From: Chrysochromulina parva | Lineage: Eukaryota > Haptophyta > Prymnesiales > Chrysochromulinaceae | Assembly (NCBI GenBank): GCA_002887195.1 | Contig: PJAB01002146.1 | Coordinates: forward strand, 1 to 10,268 | Direction of reading: 5' to 3' | DNA length: 10,268 bases | Shown here: positions 1 through 8,223 of the stretch, piece by piece | Numbering within the stretch: the stretch's first letter is position 1 | How the letters are laid out: each line of letters starts with the position of its first letter | Made by a program: the position numbers and the translations under genes | Notes under the pieces: generated by a model | What the model was told of the DNA's origin: nothing | Seen by the model: the letters and a program-made list of their open reading frames with translations, nothing else | Database searches by the model: none

Positions 1-231
1 AGCCGGCCTCTCTCATCTCTGCGAGGGTGAAGCCGGCCTCTCTCATCTCTGCGAGGGTGAAGCCGGCCTCTCTCATCTCTGCGAGGGTGAAGCCGGCCTC
101 TCTCATCTCTGCGAGGGTGACTCTCATCTCTGCGAGGGTGAAGCCGGCCTCTCTCATCTCTGCGAGGGTGAAGCCGGCCTCTCTCATCTCTGCGAGGGTG
201 AAGCCGGCCTCTCCCATCTCCGCGAGCGTGA
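1..231. repeat. 30-bp coding tandem repeat array
   Basis: The unit begins AGCCGGCCTCTCTCATCTCT on the plus strand. Units at 1-30, 31-60, 61-90, 91-120, 142-171 and 172-201 are identical. The copy at 121-141 has lost its first 9 bases, an in-frame loss of three codons, and 202-231 differs at three positions. Read on the minus strand each unit encodes GFTLAEMREA. The identity shows recent homogenisation or expansion, since synonymous sites are also unchanged. The array probably continues left of the window. Confidence 0.95.
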
Positions 232-1261
232 AGCCGGCCTCTCGCATCGCGACGAGCTCGTATCCGGCCGCCCTCAGCTGCGCGAGCGAGTAGCTGGCTT
301 CCTTAGCCTCGACGCATGTGTAGCCGGCCGCTCTGATCTGCTCGAGCGTCCAGCCCTCCCTTCTCATCTCCACACACGTGTACCCGGCCACCTTGAAGCC
401 CTCGAGGTACCCGGCCGCTCTGATCTCAAAAAGGGAATAGCCGAGCGCTCTCATCTGCACCAACGAGTAGCCCGCCGCCTTGATGTCCCAGGGCATGAAT
501 CGTAAGTGCGGCATCTTGTATCCGAGCTCCTTCACCTCCTCGAGCGTGTACCCGGCCGCCTCGAAGCCCTCGACGTACCCGGCCGCTCTCATCTCGGCGA
601 GCTTGAAGCCTGCCGCTTTGGCATCGCCGATTGTGTACCCGGCCGCTCTCATCTCGTCGAGCATGTAGCCGGCCGCCTTGGCATCGCCGATTGTGATACC
701 GGCCGCTCTCATCTCCGCGAGCGTGTAGCCGGCCGATCTCAGCTCTGCGAGCGTAAAGCCGGCCGACATGGACTCGGCGCACGTGAATCCGACACCCTTG
801 AGACCCTCGACGTACCCGGCCGCCTTGATCTGTTCCAGCGTGTACCCGGCTTGATTCATCGCCGCACAAGAGTAGCCGGCTTGCTTCAGTCCCTCGACGT
901 AGCCTGCAAGGCGTAGCTCCATGAGCACATACCCAAGTTCCCTTGCTGTGAAAGCTGTCACACCAGTCTCCTTCAACTGTTTGAGCGCTTCCACTCGGAG
1001 GCCCAGATCTGCAACAGTTGGGCGTGTTGGGCTGGCGGCGGACAGCGAAATGGCTGCCTCCGAGCGCAGGCGTGCAATTTCCTGCCGGAGAATCCCCTCC
1101 GACGCGTCCACCTGGGCACGTAGATGAGTAGCGAGCTGTTCGTTGTGGCGACGCTCTGCAAGGAGGGCTTCGTCTAGGGTTGACACACGGCTTGTCAGCT
1201 GTAATACCTGCGCCTGCAGCAAGTGAATCATGTGCTCCATCTGCTCAATCGCGAGAACCAT
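1..1261 (-). CDS. Coiled-coil and decapeptide-repeat protein, 3' end beyond the window
   Basis: I do not recognise a named family. The minus frame is open from a stop near 1376 to the left edge. I start it at the first in-frame ATG (1261-1259); an upstream exon is possible. Residues 1 to about 70 are heptad-like (MVLAIEQMEHMIHLLQAQVL onwards, then LRAQVDASEGILRQEIARLR) and suggest a coiled coil, hence perhaps an oligomer. A Ser/Pro/Thr linker follows, and from about residue 100 the protein is a run of more than 30 repeats with consensus G[YF][TS]L[AE][EQ][MI][RK]xA. Most units are 10 residues. Four are 9-residue variants (such as GYVEGLKQA), and one stretch (GYKMPHLRFMPWDIKAA) is degenerate. 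C-terminal units are nearly identical at DNA level, N-terminal ones diverged. No signal peptide or catalytic motif is visible; a scaffold or binding role is inference only. Divergent from the sulfotransferase gene. Confidence 0.7.
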   Translation of the reverse strand, partial: MVLAIEQMEHMIHLLQAQVLQLTSRVSTLDEALLAERRHNEQLATHLRAQVDASEGILRQEIARLRSEAAISLSAASPTRPTVADLGLRVEALKQLKETGVTAFTARELGYVLMELRLAGYVEGLKQAGYSCAAMNQAGYTLEQIKAAGYVEGLKGVGFTCAESMSAGFTLAELRSAGYTLAEMRAAGITIGDAKAAGYMLDEMRAAGYTIGDAKAAGFKLAEMRAAGYVEGFEAAGYTLEEVKELGYKMPHLRFMPWDIKAAGYSLVQMRALGYSLFEIRAAGYLEGFKVAGYTCVEMRREGWTLEQIRAAGYTCVEAKEASYSLAQLRAAGYELVAMREAGFTLAEMGEAGFTLAEMREAGFTLAEMREAGFTLAEMRVTLAEMREAGFTLAEMREAGFTLAEMREAGFTLAEMREAG

Positions 1262-1506: not shown

Positions 1507-2878
1507 ATGGCACACCGAACCATCGGCAGCGTGACCGCCGGCATCGTGCTCGGAGCGCTCATCAGCGCTTCGCTCACGGGCCGCTCGGCGTCGTCCAAGC
1601 TTTCACATGTACGGGGTAAGCGGAGCCTCGTGCTCGCCAACGAGTTCAGCGCGCCACTCCTCGACCACTCGGCGCGGCTTGCAGAGCTCAAGAAGGCGCA
1701 ACCTGACATCGCTGCCGTGCTGCCGCTCCGTTTCGATTTGCGGCTCAAAACCCCGTGCTTTGCGAATGGTACGGCCATGCGCTGCCTGCCGGCCTTCTTT
1801 CTGAGCGGCGCGATGCAGTGCGGGACGTCCGACATGTGGAGGAGGCTCACTGTGCACGAGCAGATTGCAAGCGAGCACGACGCGCTCTCGCACTGGTGGA
1901 CTTTGCATCCACGATCGATGGCGCGTGGGCGGCTGCGCGACTTCAACCAGTACCTCGACCTCTATTCCGCGCCGCGCACGCTCGCCATGCTCGAACGGGC
2001 TCCGGGCACGCTGCTGGGCGAGGCGTCGCCGGCGACTTTCACCTACATGATGGCCGAGCAGCTTCGGCTGCACCATTTATATTTGGACGCCTTCAGCGCG
2101 TGTTGGGGCAAGTGCCGCTCGTCCACGTGCAAGGCGGGCTGCTACGACGTCGCCAACGCCGCCACCGTCACTCTCGAGTTCAACTTGCCATCCTTGATCG
2201 CGACCACGTACTCGGCCACCCGGCTGCCCAAGCTGATCGCGCTGCTGCGCGACCCGTCCGTGAGGCTTTGGGTCGCGTTCTGGAGCTACGGCCAGTACCC
2301 GGCCAAGTACGGCCAGAGCGTGGAGGGCTTCGGTTATTATTTCGGCAACCAGTCGGCCGCCTTCCATGCTTGCACGCAGGTGCGCAGGTCGTAGAATCAA
2401 GTATCTGATTGTGTCTGATTGCTTCTTCCATGCTTGCACGCAGGCATATGGGCGACGCAGGTGCGCGCTGCGTTTTGAGGCATACGGTGCGGCGGAGGCG
2501 AACGTGTACTATCACTGCGACCAGCTGATCAAGGGCATGTATGCTGCCTTCCTGCCTGAATGGGTCGCCGCCCTCGGCGCTCCTAACCTCCTCGTGATGC
2601 GCACCGAGGCATACCTCTCGCGGCCGATCCAGACCCTCAAGCGTGCGCTTCGCCATCTCGGGCTACGGGCTCCGACCGAGGCGGAGGCTCGACGCATGCA
2701 AGCGCTGGAGAGCTCGGATGAGCTGCGCAGGGTGGAGCGTGAGCATGGGATGCCGCCCGCGACCTCCCTCAAGCTCTTGCGCCGCTTCTACCTGCCGTTC
2801 AATAGAGCGCTCGCCAGCATGCTCGACGACGACGGCTTCCTCTGGCAAGGGCAACGAGATTCCTCACGAGAGTCCTGA
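1507..2878 (+). CDS. Type II membrane carbohydrate sulfotransferase, CHST15-like (two exons)
   Basis: Predicted to transfer sulfate from PAPS to a glycan in the Golgi lumen. Joining 1507-2379 to 2444-2878 gives 435 residues. The first ATG in the open frame is at 1507 and is followed at once by a signal-anchor-like segment (GSVTAGIVLGALISA, residues 7-21). The 5'-phosphosulfate-binding region is LSGAMQCGTSDMWRRL at residues 99-114, resembling the family's G-x-x-K/Q-C-G-T pattern. The 3'-phosphate region is LLRDPSVRLWVAFW at 246-259. A Cys-rich loop (C199, C203, C208, C212) precedes it. Exon 2 supplies VYYHCDQLIKGMY (312-324) and LLVMRTEAY (340-348), typical of the CHST15-like group in algae and animals. 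It ends normally after YLPFNRALASMLDDDGFLW. Odd point: the usual Ser three residues after the second Arg of the 3'-phosphate motif is Val256. Exact glycan substrate unknown. Confidence 0.85.
2380..2443 (+). other. Intron of the sulfotransferase gene (64 bp)
   Basis: Donor CAG|GTGCGC, acceptor ACGCAG|GCATAT. Splicing restores the frame (TQ|AYGRRR) and removes the in-frame TAG at 2392-2394. A 20-base sequence, CTTCCATGCTTGCACGCAGG, occurs at 2361-2380 across the donor and again at 2425-2444 across the acceptor, an offset equal to the intron length. A second AG at 2459-2460 (GACGCAG|GTGCGC) would shift frame and reach a stop after five codons, so the first acceptor is preferred. Confidence 0.85.
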
Positions 2879-3003
2879 ATTTGGCGTTAGGTTGTTTTCG
2901 AGACGATCGTGTTTGGTCTCTCAACGTACTTTGTGCAGGTGGCTTCCTACGTGGATATTGCAGGGAAAATTGCGCAGGCAATCAGGCTGCAAACTTCTCG
3001 GAA

Positions 3004-5050
3004 ATGCTCGACAACGAAGAGCCTCTGCTCCCGCCGTACGCGGTCGCCGCCGTGCTCGGTCTCTTAGGTGTGGCCTACTGGCTGCACACTAACCGACGCC
3101 CTGCGCAAGGCCAGCCTGCAGTCGCAGCGGACGCCGACGCTGTCCGCGCCGCTCGGCTGGCAAGGCTTGGGGCCTCCACGTCAGAGGTCGCCAGCCAGCC
3201 CGCGGTCCCAAGCGTGCCGACTGGATTGGCGGCGCCAGCACATGGCGCTGCCTCTACTACCAAGGATGCGAGCGTCATTGCTTCCAGGGCGAAGCACGTG
3301 CCAGCTCAAAAGGCACCGGCTGTGGAGCCGCCCACGCCCACGCCTGCGCCTGTGCCCGCACCCGCTCCCGCACCCGCACCCGCTCCCGAGGCGGCCGTCA
3401 AAACCGCCAGCCCGCCCCGCCCGATGGCACTGGCGCGCACCCCCATATCTCTCGACGAGGCGCTAGAGTGTGCGAAGGCGACGCTGTTGGCCGTCGCGGC
3501 CGGCGATGCGTCGTCGGTTGCATGCTGGGAGCGCGCAATGGCCGACGCAGGGGCGGCTACGATCGTGGAGCCGGGTGAGCCTGCCATCGAGGTGGCCAGC
3601 CAGCGCCTCTTTTCCGCGCTCGTCATGACCCTCGCTGGCACCGCGCCCGCGACGGTGGCGCTCGAGGCAACACTGAGAGCTCTCGCCGTGTGTGAGAAGC
3701 CAACCGTATGTCCGCGTACGAGCCCACAGTTGCACTCCTCGCCGCTGCTGCGCGATGCTCTCGCCAAGTACACGCTAGGGGCCACGGCGCGGCGTGCGGT
3801 GGTGGCGGCGTTGCGCACGGTGCTTCACTCCGAGCTGCCGCCGGCGGTAACGGCTGTGGAACTCTTCCCTCCATTACCCGTCGGCGGTGTCGCTATGGGC
3901 GGCGGCATGTTCGGAGGTATGGGCATGGGCGGCGGTATGGGCATGGGCGGTGGCTTCGGCGGCGGCATGCCGACCTTCACAAGCGCTGCCCCGTCCTCCG
4001 CCGCCACCGCACCCGACCCCCTGACCGCCGCCTTCACCGCCGCCCTTGTGAACGGGCGAGTGCCGGGCTGGGCGCTCGAGTGCCTCCCCACCGCCATCGC
4101 GACGCCCGAGGACGTTGATGAAGCTCTCATCGCCTTCGAGCAGACAGTCGACATCATGAGCGCCGCGCTGCCTCTGCTGCTGCGCCCGCTCGGCGACACC
4201 GCCGCCGACGACCCAAAGCCGAGCCTCGGGGCTCTGCTCATGATCCTCCTTGCCAATCCAGCGGCACCGGCCGCGCTGTGTCGACTGCTCGAGGTCGAGG
4301 CGAGCGCGATGCGAGAGAAGCGCGTGAGCGGTGCACGGGCCGAGCACGGCACGTACGTCGGCTGCTTACTGCGCGTCGGCCGCCCTGCCGCCTTCGGCGC
4401 TGAACTGTCCAACCCTTTGCGCGCCAAAGTGACGAATCTCGACCGTCTCGTCGAGGCGGGAGATCGCGAGCTCCAGTACGTGGCCGAGTCCCTGCAGCGC
4501 GGTCTCGCGACGCTCCTCGGGGGCGGCCAGCAGGCATGGCTGCGCGTGCTGCGCGCTGGCGGAGCGGACGGTCGCGAGATGGTCCTCCAATGGTTCTCAG
4601 CGATGTTGCATGCAAGCGCGCCTCGGGCCGAGGTGATCGCCTCGTCCTTTCGCACCATGCTCCGTCCGGGAGAGGAGCGTGCTCGGCGCATGCGCCTCAT
4701 TCGAGAGGCAAGCTCGGATGAGCTCCTGACCAACGCGTGGGCGACCCTCTTGCGCCTGTGTGAGCCATTCCTCACCTTTGATGCACGTGGCGAGCCGTCG
4801 GCGGAGACGCTCGCGAAGCTCGAGCCCGCGGCGCACTACACGCGCACGGCCGCCACGCACCACCGCATCGACTATGCGAACGTGTACACCACCCTCGCGG
4901 GTCGCATCCACTCATCGAGGGGGATGGCGAGCGGGGCGGGCTCCGACTACTTTGCCGCTGTCGCCGCCGCTGAGGCCGAACTCCACGCGGCGAGCGACGA
5001 GCCGATCCCAGGGGCGTCCGCATCCGCAGACGGCACGGCCGCTGCCGACG

Positions 5051-5092
<42 letters not shown>

Positions 5093-8000
5093 CGCCCTCG
5101 TTTGTGAGTGAGGCCTTCTTCCTTGCCCAGTACGCGGCGCACGTGGGTCCAGTCCCCATGCTTCGTCACATGCGCTTCCAGTGCGGCGGCTGGCACCACA
5201 ATCTCACCGCCGGAGGTGGCAGCGGCGCGCTCTCGCCGGATCAGAACGCGACGCTGTACCGGATGCAGCAGGCCTTCCTGTTGCACCTGCACCAGCCTCA
5301 CACCCTCGACCTCTCCATACGGTATGCTCGGCTGCAGGCTGCGTGGCTCCATCGGCTCTGTGAGAGGCAGCCCCCCAGTGCCGCGCTCGCCGCCCTCGAG
5401 CTTGTGCCCTCGTTCGTCGTGGGCGACATGTGCACTCTCCTCATTGAGGCGATCCAAGGGGCGCCTGACGCGATGGCACTGCATGATCTACAGCCGCTCA
5501 CGCTCGCCATCGCCGCGCTCCTACGTGCGGGCTCGCCGGCCCTCAACCAAGGCATGCGCCTCGTGCGATCTCCCGTGGTGCTCGCGCAGCTGCTCGAGGT
5601 GTGCTACTATCTCGTCGTGCCCTCGCGCTCGAGACGGCGCTCGAGCAGCGCCCTGCTCGGTGCGAGTGGGTGGGGCGGCGACGTGGGCGGTCGCCTGTCC
5701 GAGGCCGTCCTCGGCGATGCGCGCGTACGAGTCAGCCTTGTCGTACCCCTCGCCGCCGCATACGCCGCCCTCGACGCTGTCGAAGGACTCGATGTGGACG
5801 CGGTCGAGAACGAGCTGCCAGACGGCGGCCAGTTCGAAAAGTTTGGGCTTCGTCAGAAAATCAACACGCTGCTCCTGCAGCTCTGGCGGCTTCCCGACGC
5901 GCGGGACACCCTTTGCGCTGCCGCTACCGGCCAGCCAACGAGCGGCGCCGCTGGTGGGGATGGTGGGGCGGCCGCGGCCGAGGCGGCGGCGGCCGGGGCC
6001 AAAGTGGTCGCGGGCCTCGCGAACGGAATGCTGGACACGCTGCTATACCAGCTCGAGGAGGCCCTTAAGCGCATCCGAGAGTGCAATCTCGCGGCGTGGG
6101 ACGAGTCCGCGACCGAGCTACTCCACTCGCAGGGCTATTGCAAGGCACTTCTCGAGGGATCAAGCTCGACGCTCGAGCTCATGGGCGCGCTCACTACGGC
6201 GCCCGAGCTCGCGGCCGTCTTTGCGAGCCCGCCTGTGGTCGCACGCACCGCCGCCGCGTCCCTCCAATTTTTGACGAAACTGTGCGCCAAGCCGAGGGCC
6301 CTCGCTGTGAAGAGCCGATGGCCCTCGCTGTGAATCTGCATGTCCACTGATGTCCCCTGATGGCCCCTGATGGCTTCGGATGGCCTCTGATAGCCCCCGA
6401 TGGCCTCTGGTGGGCCCTGATGGCTTCGGATGGCCTCTGATGGCTCCTGATGGCCTCTGGTGGCTTCGGATGGCTTCGGATGGCCTCTAATGGCCCCTGA
6501 TGGCCCCTGATGGCTTCGGATGGCCTCCCCCATCAGGTGCGGCAAGCAGGCGCTCGATATGAAACTGCGCGGCCGCCTGACGAACGCGGACTTTGGCTTC
6601 GACCCGATTGGGTTGCTCAAAGGTCTCTGTGGGGTCTTGCTTGGGTGCACCCGCCACGACGAGGGCGCACGCACGACGCTGATCGGCTGCCTCGCGACGC
6701 ATGACGATCTCGAAATAACGGTCCTGCGAAAGCTGGTCATGATTGTGACGCGGGATCACATGCTGCCTCTCTCGGAGCAGCAGAGACTCGCCGCACTTGT
6801 GGAGGCGGTCGCGGAGGAGGCATGCCGACACGGCGCGGCGGTGGGCGGCGCAGTTGCAGTTGGTGGCGGCAAGGCGGCGGCTAACGGCTGTGGCGCCGAC
6901 ACAACGGCCGGCGCGCCCAGCGCGCCCGCGGAGACTTCGATCTTCGCCGTTCTCGAGAGGGAGATTGGCGTTCTCGGGAGCGAGATTGGGCCGAGCGGCT
7001 CCGCGAGCGGCTCGGCGGCTGCATCGGAGGGTGTTGAGGAGGAGGCGGCTTACGTGGCCGCGCTCGAGGGATTCGTCTTCGACCAAGCTGATCTGCTGAG
7101 CGATCGCGCGCCACAGCGCCACCACTATGCTGATCAGGCGGCTGCAGCCGAGGGCGGCGGCGCATTGCCCGCGTTGCGCAAGAAGCTCATGAAGGAGGTG
7201 AGAGCTCCAGGCTGATCACCATTCTGATGGCCTCTGATGACCTCTGATGAGCGCTGATGGCCCCCCTCATCACCGACGAGCGCGGATGCCCCCCCTCATC
7301 AGGTCAAGGAGCTCCAGCGCGGCGACCTTCCGCTACATGTGAACGCGGCGGTCCTCGTGCGTCAGGACGAGAGCCGTATGGACGTATGGCGTGCGTTGCT
7401 CTCGGGCCCAGTGGACACGCCCTATGCCCTCGGCCTCTTCGCATTCGATCTCTTCTGCCCCCCCGAGTACCCTAGCATCGCCCCACTCGTGCACCTGGCG
7501 ACGACTGCTGGTGGCACGGTCAAGTTCAACCCCAACCTGTATGCGGATGGCAAGGTGTGCCTCTCGCTCCTGGGCACATTCACACTCACATTCATATTCA
7601 CACATTCACATTCACAATCACAATCACAGGTGTGCCTCTCGCTTCTGGGCACGTTCAACGCGGGCGACGCGTCCGAGAAGTGGGACCCGATGCGCTCGTC
7701 CCTGTTCCAGGTGCTGGTCTCGATCCAATCTCAGATCCAACCCCAGATCCAATCTCGATCCAATCTCAGATCTAATCTCAGATCCTGTGTCTCGATCCAA
7801 TCTCAGGTGCTGGTCTCGATCCAATCTCAGATCCTTACTGAAGAGCCCATCGTCAACGAGCCCGGCTACGACGAGAAGCATCTAGGAGGCGCCGCCTCTC
7901 GCGAGTACAATGCCAAGCTGCGTCTGCACACGATGCGGCACGCGATGACCGCGCAGCTGCTCCGCCCGCCTGCGGGCTTTGAAGCTGCCGTGACAGCACA

Positions 8001-8223
8001 CTTCACCGCGACCCGAGCGCGCGTTCTTCGTCAATGTCGACGTTGGACTATCGAGGCTCCACCCGAGCTCCGACCTAAAATGGAAGCGGCGCTCGCCGCA
8101 CTCCACGCGGCACTCCCGCCGCCGCCGGTGGCGGCCAACGGCGAGGCGGGCGCCGCTGCATCGTCATCGAGCGAAGCTCCGGTGCCGGCGGCCCATGATG
8201 ATGATGATGGGCTCTACGATTGA
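3004..8223 (+). CDS. Membrane-anchored E4 (UBE4/Ufd2 core) fused to a BIRC6-type E2 (UBC) domain, five exons
   Basis: Exons 3004-6281, 6537-7197, 7303-7554, 7630-7710 and 7807-8223 give 1562 residues. The start is the first ATG in the open frame. Residues 12-28 (YAVAAVLGLLGVAYWLH) look like a membrane anchor; VRAARLARLG just after resembles the N-terminal motif of UBE4 proteins. Pro/Ala, Gly/Met (about 296-322) and Ala-run (684-695) low-complexity segments follow. Ufd2-core landmarks: FVSEAFFLAQYAAHVG from 700, RSPVVLAQLLEV 855-866, FEKFGLRQKINTLLLQLW 944-961, MLDTLLYQLEEALKRI near 1010-1025 and DFGFDPIGLLKGL from 1111. After a Gly/Ala linker comes the BIRC6-like lead (YVAALEGFVFDQADLL, 1265-1280), then UBC: RQDESRMDVWRALLSGP, FNPNLYADGK (1388-1397), catalytic Cys1399 in VCLSLLGTF, QVLVSIQSQIL and NEPGY (1441-1445). 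No U-box is found before the stop. Predicted to build or extend ubiquitin chains at a membrane; the anchor and membrane role are inference. Confidence 0.85.
5053..5088 (+). repeat. (GCC)n trinucleotide run encoding polyalanine
   Basis: A dozen consecutive GCC codons encode an alanine run just before the conserved Ufd2-core segment FVSEAFF. It lies in frame in exon 1 of the E4-E2 gene and probably marks a flexible boundary. Slippage makes it likely to vary in length between strains. Confidence 0.9.
6282..6536 (+). other. Intron 1 of the E4-E2 gene (255 bp, minisatellite-filled)
   Basis: Donor ACT|GTGCGCC, acceptor CATCAG|GTGCGGC. Splicing gives FLTKLC|GKQALDMKLRG, which rebuilds the conserved Ufd2-core stretch and removes the TGA at 6331-6333. 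The intron start (GTGCGCCAAGCCGAGGGCCC) is a diverged copy of the exon 2 start (GTGCGGCAAGCAGGCGCTCG). A 15-base repeat, GGCCCTCGCTGTGAA, occurs at 6297-6311 and 6320-6334. The rest is a 10-bp tandem repeat. Confidence 0.85.
6341..6530 (+). repeat. 10-bp minisatellite inside intron 1
   Basis: Nineteen consecutive 10-base units with consensus TGGCCYCTGA run without a register change. The commonest variants are TGGCCTCTGA, TGGCCCCTGA and TGGCTTCGGA. The array stops six bases before exon 2, and its last unit flows into the acceptor tract CCCCCATCAG. On the minus strand it reads as an open frame of SEAIRGHQ-type repeats, which I take as a by-product and not a protein. Confidence 0.95.
7198..7302 (+). 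other. Intron 2 of the E4-E2 gene (105 bp)
   Basis: Donor GAG|GTGAGAG, acceptor CTCATCAG|GTCAAGG. Splicing yields LRKKLMKE|VKELQRGDLP, continuing the helix that leads into the UBC fold, and removes the TGA at 7213-7215. The intron start GTGAGAGCTCCAG resembles the exon 3 start GTCAAGGAGCTCCAG (shared GAGCTCCAG). The interior carries TGATGGCCTC-like units as in intron 1. A 25-base segment is duplicated at 7249-7273 and 7278-7302 with three differences; the first copy ends CAC, the second CAG and serves as acceptor. Confidence 0.85.
7555..7629 (+). other. Intron 3 of the E4-E2 gene (75 bp), next to the E2 active-site codon
   Basis: Donor AAG|GTGTGCC, acceptor ATCACAG|GTGTGCC. The first 28 bases (7555-7582) repeat the first 28 of exon 4 (7630-7657) with two differences, both at third codon positions. 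The remainder is CATTCA-like simple sequence. The length is a multiple of three with no in-frame stop, so the genomic frame reads through. Removing it leaves a single GKVCLSLLGTF as in BIRC6-type E2 domains, with the catalytic Cys codon second after the junction. Confidence 0.8.
7711..7806 (+). other. Intron 4 of the E4-E2 gene (96 bp)
   Basis: Donor CAG|GTGCTGG, acceptor TCTCAG|GTGCTGG. The first 28 bases (7711-7738) are identical to the first 28 of exon 5 (7807-7834). The interior consists of degenerate copies of part of that segment (CGATCCAATCTCAGATC). It is a multiple of three without an in-frame stop. Removal gives SLFQ|VLVSIQSQILTEEP, matching the conserved QVLVSIQSLIL region of BIRC6-type UBC domains; retention would insert 32 residues there. 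Confidence 0.8.

Follow-up and report, generated by a model that had tools for sequence, protein, structure and literature searches.

The window analysed here is a stretch of 10,268 nt from the haptophyte Chrysochromulina parva, namely contig C2146 (PJAB01002146.1) of a 45 Mb assembly with 2199 contigs. It contains a gene for a decapeptide-repeat protein, a gene without a Pfam match in which intron 1 is located, a gene coding for a Ufd2P core and an E2 domain (UQ_con) which is interrupted by introns 2 to 5, and a PP2C gene (Table 1). Judged from their sequence, these are probably recently gained spliceosomal introns which arose when DNA was inserted and an unusually long stretch of the target was duplicated. 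The origin of introns is an old open question, and intron birth may be caught in the act here.

Table 1. Introns, flanking repeats and genes in the window
Feature	Position	Strand	Remarks
Intron 1 repeat, copy 1 (exon end)	2361-2380	+	20/20 identical to 2425-2444
Intron 1, 64 nt, GT-AG, type 2	2380-2443	+	removal of 64 nt joins open frames 1447-2394 and 2366-2878
Intron 1 repeat, copy 2	2425-2444	+	20/20 identical to copy 1
Intron 2, 255 nt, GT-AG, family B	6282-6536	+	start resembles exon start at 6537; CTGATGGCCT-like units ending CCCCCATCAG
Intron 3, 105 nt, GT-AG, family B-like body ending CCCCCTCATCAG	7198-7302	+	weak repeat, 2 nt out of register
Intron 4 repeat, copy 1, 30 nt	7553-7582	+	28/30 identical to copy 2
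Intron 4, 75 nt, GT-AG, CACATT-type body	7555-7629	+	missing from haplotype P0007 and paralogues C784, C840
Intron 4 repeat, copy 2	7628-7657	+	28/30 identical to copy 1
Intron 5 repeat, copy 1, 31 nt	7708-7738	+	31/31 identical to copy 2
Intron 5, 96 nt, GT-AG, body mostly of exon-derived GATCCAATCTCA units	7711-7806	+	absent in 5/9 near-identical haplotypes
Intron 5 repeat, copy 2	7804-7834	+	31/31 identical to copy 1
Decapeptide-repeat protein	2-1261	-	PF25296
Ufd2P core and UQ_con (E2) gene, containing introns 2-5	2881-8223	+	Pfam PF10408, PF00179
PP2C gene			within the window; open frames and Pfam

Introns of the window and their flanking repeats

The initial annotation proposed five introns of 64, 255, 105, 75 and 96 nt with GT-AG ends, and these lengths and ends were confirmed. 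It further claimed that all five are bounded by a direct repeat, the offset of which equals the intron length. For each intron, the donor flank was aligned with the acceptor flank, and the score was compared with 5000 draws from the AGGT sites (1287) in 200 kb sampled at random (the first 10 kb of each of 20 contigs, G+C 64%). The scores of introns 1, 4 and 5 (40, 50 and 62, respectively) were not attained in any of the draws. These three repeats are beyond doubt (20/20 for intron 1, 28/30 for intron 4, and identical copies, 31/31, for intron 5). The repeat at intron 2 is probable (score 22, p = 0.006). That at intron 3 is weak and statistically marginal (score 18, p = 0.046); its GAGCTCCAG match has an offset of 107 and is shifted by 2 nt, so that offset and intron length do not agree there.

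In intron 1, the 3' end of the intron copies the end of the preceding exon. In introns 4 and 5, and more weakly in intron 2, it is the 5' end of the intron which copies the start of the following exon. Intron 2 has an in-frame stop codon at 6331-6333. Introns 4 and 5 are in frame and stop-free, which would suit coding minisatellites or peptide insertions rather than introns. Both, however, fall inside the E2 domain match and split it.

Filled, empty and duplication-only alleles

The initial annotation had suggested checking related sequences for presence or absence of the introns. Empty alleles with a single repeat copy were found in two genes, all alleles being read as protein sequence. For the E2 part, the nine closest public proteins (P0002-P0010, 92-100% identical in aligned columns) and five more distant ones were compared. 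Four of the nine (P0002, P0006, P0008 and P0010) contain intron 5, which is read through in frame. It is exactly absent from the other five (P0003, P0004, P0005, P0007 and P0009), which have QVLVSIQSQIL or QVLISIQSQIL only once. Among these, P0003 is 100% identical in aligned columns and yet lacks the intron. Of the seven proteins that are informative for intron 4 (P0008 and P0010 fall short of the site), P0002-P0006 and P0009 have this intron, and P0007 lacks it. P0007 has GPPHQ before VKELQ; in the window, the 3' end of intron 3 translates into the corresponding APPHQ. P0007 thus seems to be derived from genomic or unspliced sequence rather than from a mature message. The simplest order of events would be that intron 4 was gained first and intron 5 later. 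Paralogue C784 is devoid of introns 4 and 5, and its flank matches overlap by one copy of each repeat. For paralogue C840, the spacing of the matches agrees with the absence of both introns. P0010 has MTSDDIF in place of RSSLF before its copy of intron 5, as if there were a further insertion just upstream.

The second gene codes for malonyl-CoA decarboxylase and contains, in frame, a copy (L095) of the insert family A that is described below. Among the seven closest relatives (94-100% identical in the alignment), one is filled (P0122, with a 25-residue insert and VGLTPRV twice), five are empty (P0123-P0127, with GLTPRV once) and one carries only a duplication. In the latter, P0128, TEVGLTPRV occurs twice in tandem (a 9-residue duplication) with no element, at a site which is filled in another haplotype. 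Simple loss of the element explains this allele poorly because the residues between the copies are TE, as in the exon, and not DE, as in the intron. It may represent a repair duplication at the same spot. Given this allele and the exon-derived body of intron 5, duplication without a foreign insert seems to occur as well. Filled, empty and duplication-only alleles coexist in near-identical haplotypes. A single natural population could serve to measure how fast introns are gained, by which mechanism and under what selection.

The interrupted gene itself codes for a Ufd2-type E4 core that is fused to an E2 domain, a pair which is also listed for P0017, P0027, P0039, P0043 and P0076. The best named relatives of the E2 part are an MMETSP transcript (56%) and a protein from Emiliania huxleyi (49%), in line with an origin in a haptophyte or a related alga. 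A protein search with the Ufd2 exon resulted in a single relative, P0001 (92% identity, 57% of the query covered), which reaches none of the introns. The gene for the decapeptide-repeat protein contains a tandem array of 30 nt units, in which one step is 21 nt. A scan of the window against NCBIfam gave nothing beyond a sub-cutoff phosphatase match.

Insert families and reading frames across the genome

The random 200 kb sample contains 28 isolated two-copy repeats with offsets of 40-400. Eleven of these have GT and AG at an equal offset in the two copies, compared to a mean of 4.5 (s.d. 1.9, maximum 10) in 300 null draws. When GC donors were allowed, there was no significant excess (13 of 28; null 10.8, s.d. 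2.5). A dinucleotide count over the left edges of all direct repeats, in which GT/AG ranked only 50th of 256, was confounded by tandem arrays and by AG being common to the copies; it was replaced by the isolated-repeat test and by the family A tests below.

Among the fillers of the sampled repeats, common families were recognized. The 25-base core of family A has 1706 matches genome-wide (at most three mismatches), while a reversed control has none. Pattern matches number 7143 for family B, whose CTGATTGCCT units also occur in introns 2 and 3, 165 for family C, with CACATT units like those of intron 4, and 10 for family D (the type of intron 5); such counts include several units of one tandem array. 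At loci L054, L056, L059, L062 and L064, a common motif like GAAGTCACACAGACACACATTCAC or CACACAGACACACATTCAC surrounds the CACATT units, a possible source of family C fillers.

These families bear on the cause favored in the initial annotation, which was tandem duplication of an exon segment holding a proto-splice site (AGGT); its middle part would then have expanded. The largely exon-derived body of intron 5 and the tandem in P0128 would fit. The family A and B inserts, however, are dispersed and are not copies of the flanking exon; family A is one sequence at 1706 places. Tandem duplication is thus an unlikely general cause, with intron 5 as an exception. The broader proposal of recent intron gain on a genome scale is supported by the presence and absence of introns among haplotypes of two genes and by the large insert families.

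For family A, 40 loci were hand-picked from 100 exact matches listed (of the 1706), and most contigs with close multiple matches were skipped. In an unanchored test, 120 nt of upstream sequence were aligned with 110 nt of downstream sequence, and the best score was compared with a mispaired null. Of the 40 loci, 26 scored above the 99% level of the null and nine above its maximum. In 21 of these 26 repeat-flanked copies, the downstream copy of the repeat starts at most 5 nt from the first CAG after the core. This would fit a fixed 3' end, but the loci were chosen by a core close to CAG: it lies 12-19 nt before CAG in the 21 key loci, and copies that are truncated at the 3' end before the core escape the search. 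The remaining five are L035 and L099 (array-like), L092 (low complexity), L090 (type 2, see below) and L093. An anchored test, which needs a CAG within 45 nt and leaves out L035, L045, L093, L099 and L106, gave 24 of 35 loci above the mispaired 99% level. The duplicates are 15-38 nt long, with a median of 28 (23 loci: the 21 plus L090 and L093). Where the anchored test exceeded the 99% level (24 copies), the duplicate is at a distance of -6 to 36 nt from the core, so that the 5' end is variable. Three of the 24 anchored repeats (L096, L098 and L102) have no GT at the repeat edge, and GT is therefore not an absolute need of insertion; selection would be the reason why it is found there in the others. 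If the 40 loci are typical, on the order of a thousand of the 1706 family A copies carry a long, legible scar.

Reading frames were assessed for the 21 family A introns with GT donors from the anchored set, using a codon model that was built on the long open frames found in the 200 kb. With the intron removed, the exon phases agree in 18 of 21, compared to two and one of 21 in controls with a shifted acceptor frame. The length is not a multiple of three in 16 of the introns; when left unspliced, 15 of these lose the phase and one retains it. The frame of exon 1 is stop-free in 17 of 21 cases when spliced and in nine when unspliced. Splicing itself we infer from such sequence data. Three inserts, L063, L067 and L088, have duplications of 20-33 nt, without a matching GT/AG by eye, and offsets of 45, 54 and 69, all divisible by three; these inserts are perhaps unspliced peptide insertions. 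Like the open frames of introns 4 and 5, they speak for peptide insertions or coding minisatellites. With the split E2 domain match and the phase results, such an origin is very improbable for the introns in general.

The repeat pattern is not universal among introns. Six introns elsewhere, which were set by protein homology, were judged by eye. L115 has a diverged repeat. For L114, L125 and the second intron of C1293, no repeat was seen. The first intron of C1293 (L109) and that of C127 (L110) contain nested exon copies of 30 and 24 nt, respectively, with an offset shorter than the intron; these longer introns look as if they had been hit again. L114, L115 and L125 are the three introns seen in 20 kinase loci, one of them with the diverged repeat; the loci were fetched from a scan in which the best 126 of 432 candidates were scored, with a bias to complete matches. 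Most of the chaperonin and kinase genes with the best scores have no interruption. Old introns may therefore be few, although the kinase list favors complete matches.

Searching viral contigs with two family B-like patterns and with the Ufd2 protein gave nothing useful. With the family A core, one contig was found (L134, filed as viral in IMG/VR). Its last 375 bases (4180-4554) match C1930 with 90% identity over a gapped alignment and are near-identical outside the gaps. In the matching part, the family A core is accompanied by a repeat of 39 nt that encloses TGACGAACCC units, of which there are four in L134 and six in C1930; L134 also lacks 14 nt of the intron copy. As L134 has the structure of C1930 with another number of units, an artefact confined to one assembly does not explain the intron structure, and the fillers evidently change fast. 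The C1930-like end of L134 may be a chimeric assembly or transferred DNA.

Possible insertion mechanisms and comparison with known systems

The initial annotation had named a target-site duplication around an inserted element as a rival explanation, and the family A inserts fit it. Insertion with a long target duplication is highly probable. A short element would enter an exon. Often this would be a piece of an existing intron family, in other cases microsatellite-like DNA or a copy of local sequence, and it would come to lie between two copies of about 15-38 nt of the exon. The message would be restored by splicing when donor and acceptor share the same offset in the two copies. In type 1, which is commonest in family A, the element would bring the core, a pyrimidine tract and CAG, while the GT donor would be the start of the upstream exon copy. 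CTCAC in the core can be read as a branch-point-like motif. In type 2, the donor would come with the element, and AG with the copy of the exon end that lies downstream. A third form would have AG|GT inside the duplicate.

Two explanations of the insertion step compete closely, namely retroposition of excised intron RNA and the repair of breaks; both may act. Under retroposition, excised intron RNA would be inserted into an exon by target-primed reverse transcription. We infer this from family A, because its 3' end is at the intron 3' terminus, its 5' end is varied and its duplication is long and variable. The step is proposed tentatively, and with less confidence than this pattern might suggest, because the family A loci were chosen by a core which in the 21 key loci is only 12-19 nt away from CAG, so that copies truncated further upstream would be missed. 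It is possible, if rather doubtful, that the excised RNA acts like a short interspersed nuclear element (SINE): its 3' end would be copied at an exon nick, reverse transcription would stop at various points, and the target duplication would supply the donor. If so, each new copy would at once be a working intron, and introns would spread as retroposons which rebuild half of their splice signals from the target.

The alternative is a staggered double-strand break that is repaired by end joining. Fill-in would create the duplication, any nearby DNA, such as intron fragments or slipped copies of the break ends, would be captured, and selection would keep the spliceable ones. We consider this a serious possibility, though short of probable. 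It would account for the varying length of the duplication, for the duplicates without matching GT/AG in L063, L067 and L088 and for the duplication-only allele P0128. In addition, the start of the filler resembles the end of the duplicate above the 95% level of the null in nine of 52 events (expected 2.6; a test of the left end gave 4/52), most strongly in intron 5 and L048 and also in L103 and intron 4. L035, L092 and L099, which are arrays or of low complexity, are not among the 52 events, nor are two repeats of the sample with an offset of more than 200. Random capture would, however, produce many truncated 3' ends and AGGT inside the duplicate, whereas 21 of 26 family A repeats begin at an intact intron 3' end, an argument that is limited by the core-based choice of loci.

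Several observations weigh against recent gain by insertion and retroposition as described. Type 2 copies (L090, probably L045, and intron 1) keep the donor end and have lost the 3' part, which retroposition does not predict, and these copies, like the local fillers of intron 4, intron 5 and L048, do not resemble retroposition products. Matches to the reverse-transcriptase domain RVT_1 in the contigs are few (five, on C34, C103, C324, C1434 and C2182, with 29.7-34.2 bits at a cut-off of 29.6). In the 11 random-sample repeats, GT/AG is at the left edge in four, inside in five and at the right edge in two. No significant flanking repeat was found at 14 of the 40 family A loci, and clear non-array repeats of at least 19 nt were seen by eye in only about seven of 20 family B and four of 15 family C loci. 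Also, the nine of 21 family A loci that are stop-free when unspliced could be read through in the frame of exon 1.

A long, variable duplication is atypical for ordinary cut-and-paste transposases. DNA transposon introners with a transposase, of the published kind, would explain dispersed families with target duplications. The variable 5' ends and duplications of 15-38 nt, as opposed to 3-9 bp in PMC9860276, make them a scarcely credible source here.

A literature search, in which few subscription papers were covered, found no description of duplications of 15-38 nt on a dispersed intron family. In tandem genomic duplication with AGGT (review PMC3443670), donor and acceptor are at equal offset as they are here, and intron 5 and P0128 fit. 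In contrast, family A introns have a body that is not related to the exon and consists of a single dispersed sequence; the exception among the introns is intron 5, with its largely exon-derived body. The neointrons of Daphnia (Li et al. 2014, PMC4202315) are attributed to staggered break repair and share presence/absence polymorphism with our introns. Their repeats, however, have 4-12 bp rather than 15-38 nt, and an insert family with a thousand copies is not described in the part available. Rogers and Bendich (2025, PMC11782384) searched by hand within 80 bp of each intron border and reported, for 213 introns, repeats of 4-30 bp (mean 11.4) at the border or close to it. The repeats described here differ in being in register with the splice sites and in having empty alleles. 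The introners of Amoebophrya (Farhat et al. 2021, PMC7789003) are likewise invasive, repeated introns with direct repeats, but these have 3-5 nt and are accompanied by inverted repeats of 8-20 nt and non-canonical splice sites.

The introners of Gozashti et al. (2022, PMC9860276) have target duplications of 3-9 bp, with inverted repeats in some families and no duplication in others. As in that system, many similar short introns are dispersed over new, unrelated sites, insertion has occurred at sites which are empty in relatives (at the protein level), target duplications are present, and the splice sites are split between element and duplicate. The message is precisely restored in most introner families; here, frames agree in 18 of 21 cases when the predicted introns are removed. 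The differences are the duplication of 15-38 nt (median 28), the 3' end of family A at CAG with a varied 5' end, and several simple-repeat fillers. The scar is longer than in any introner description found in the sources available, which points to a different insertion chemistry.

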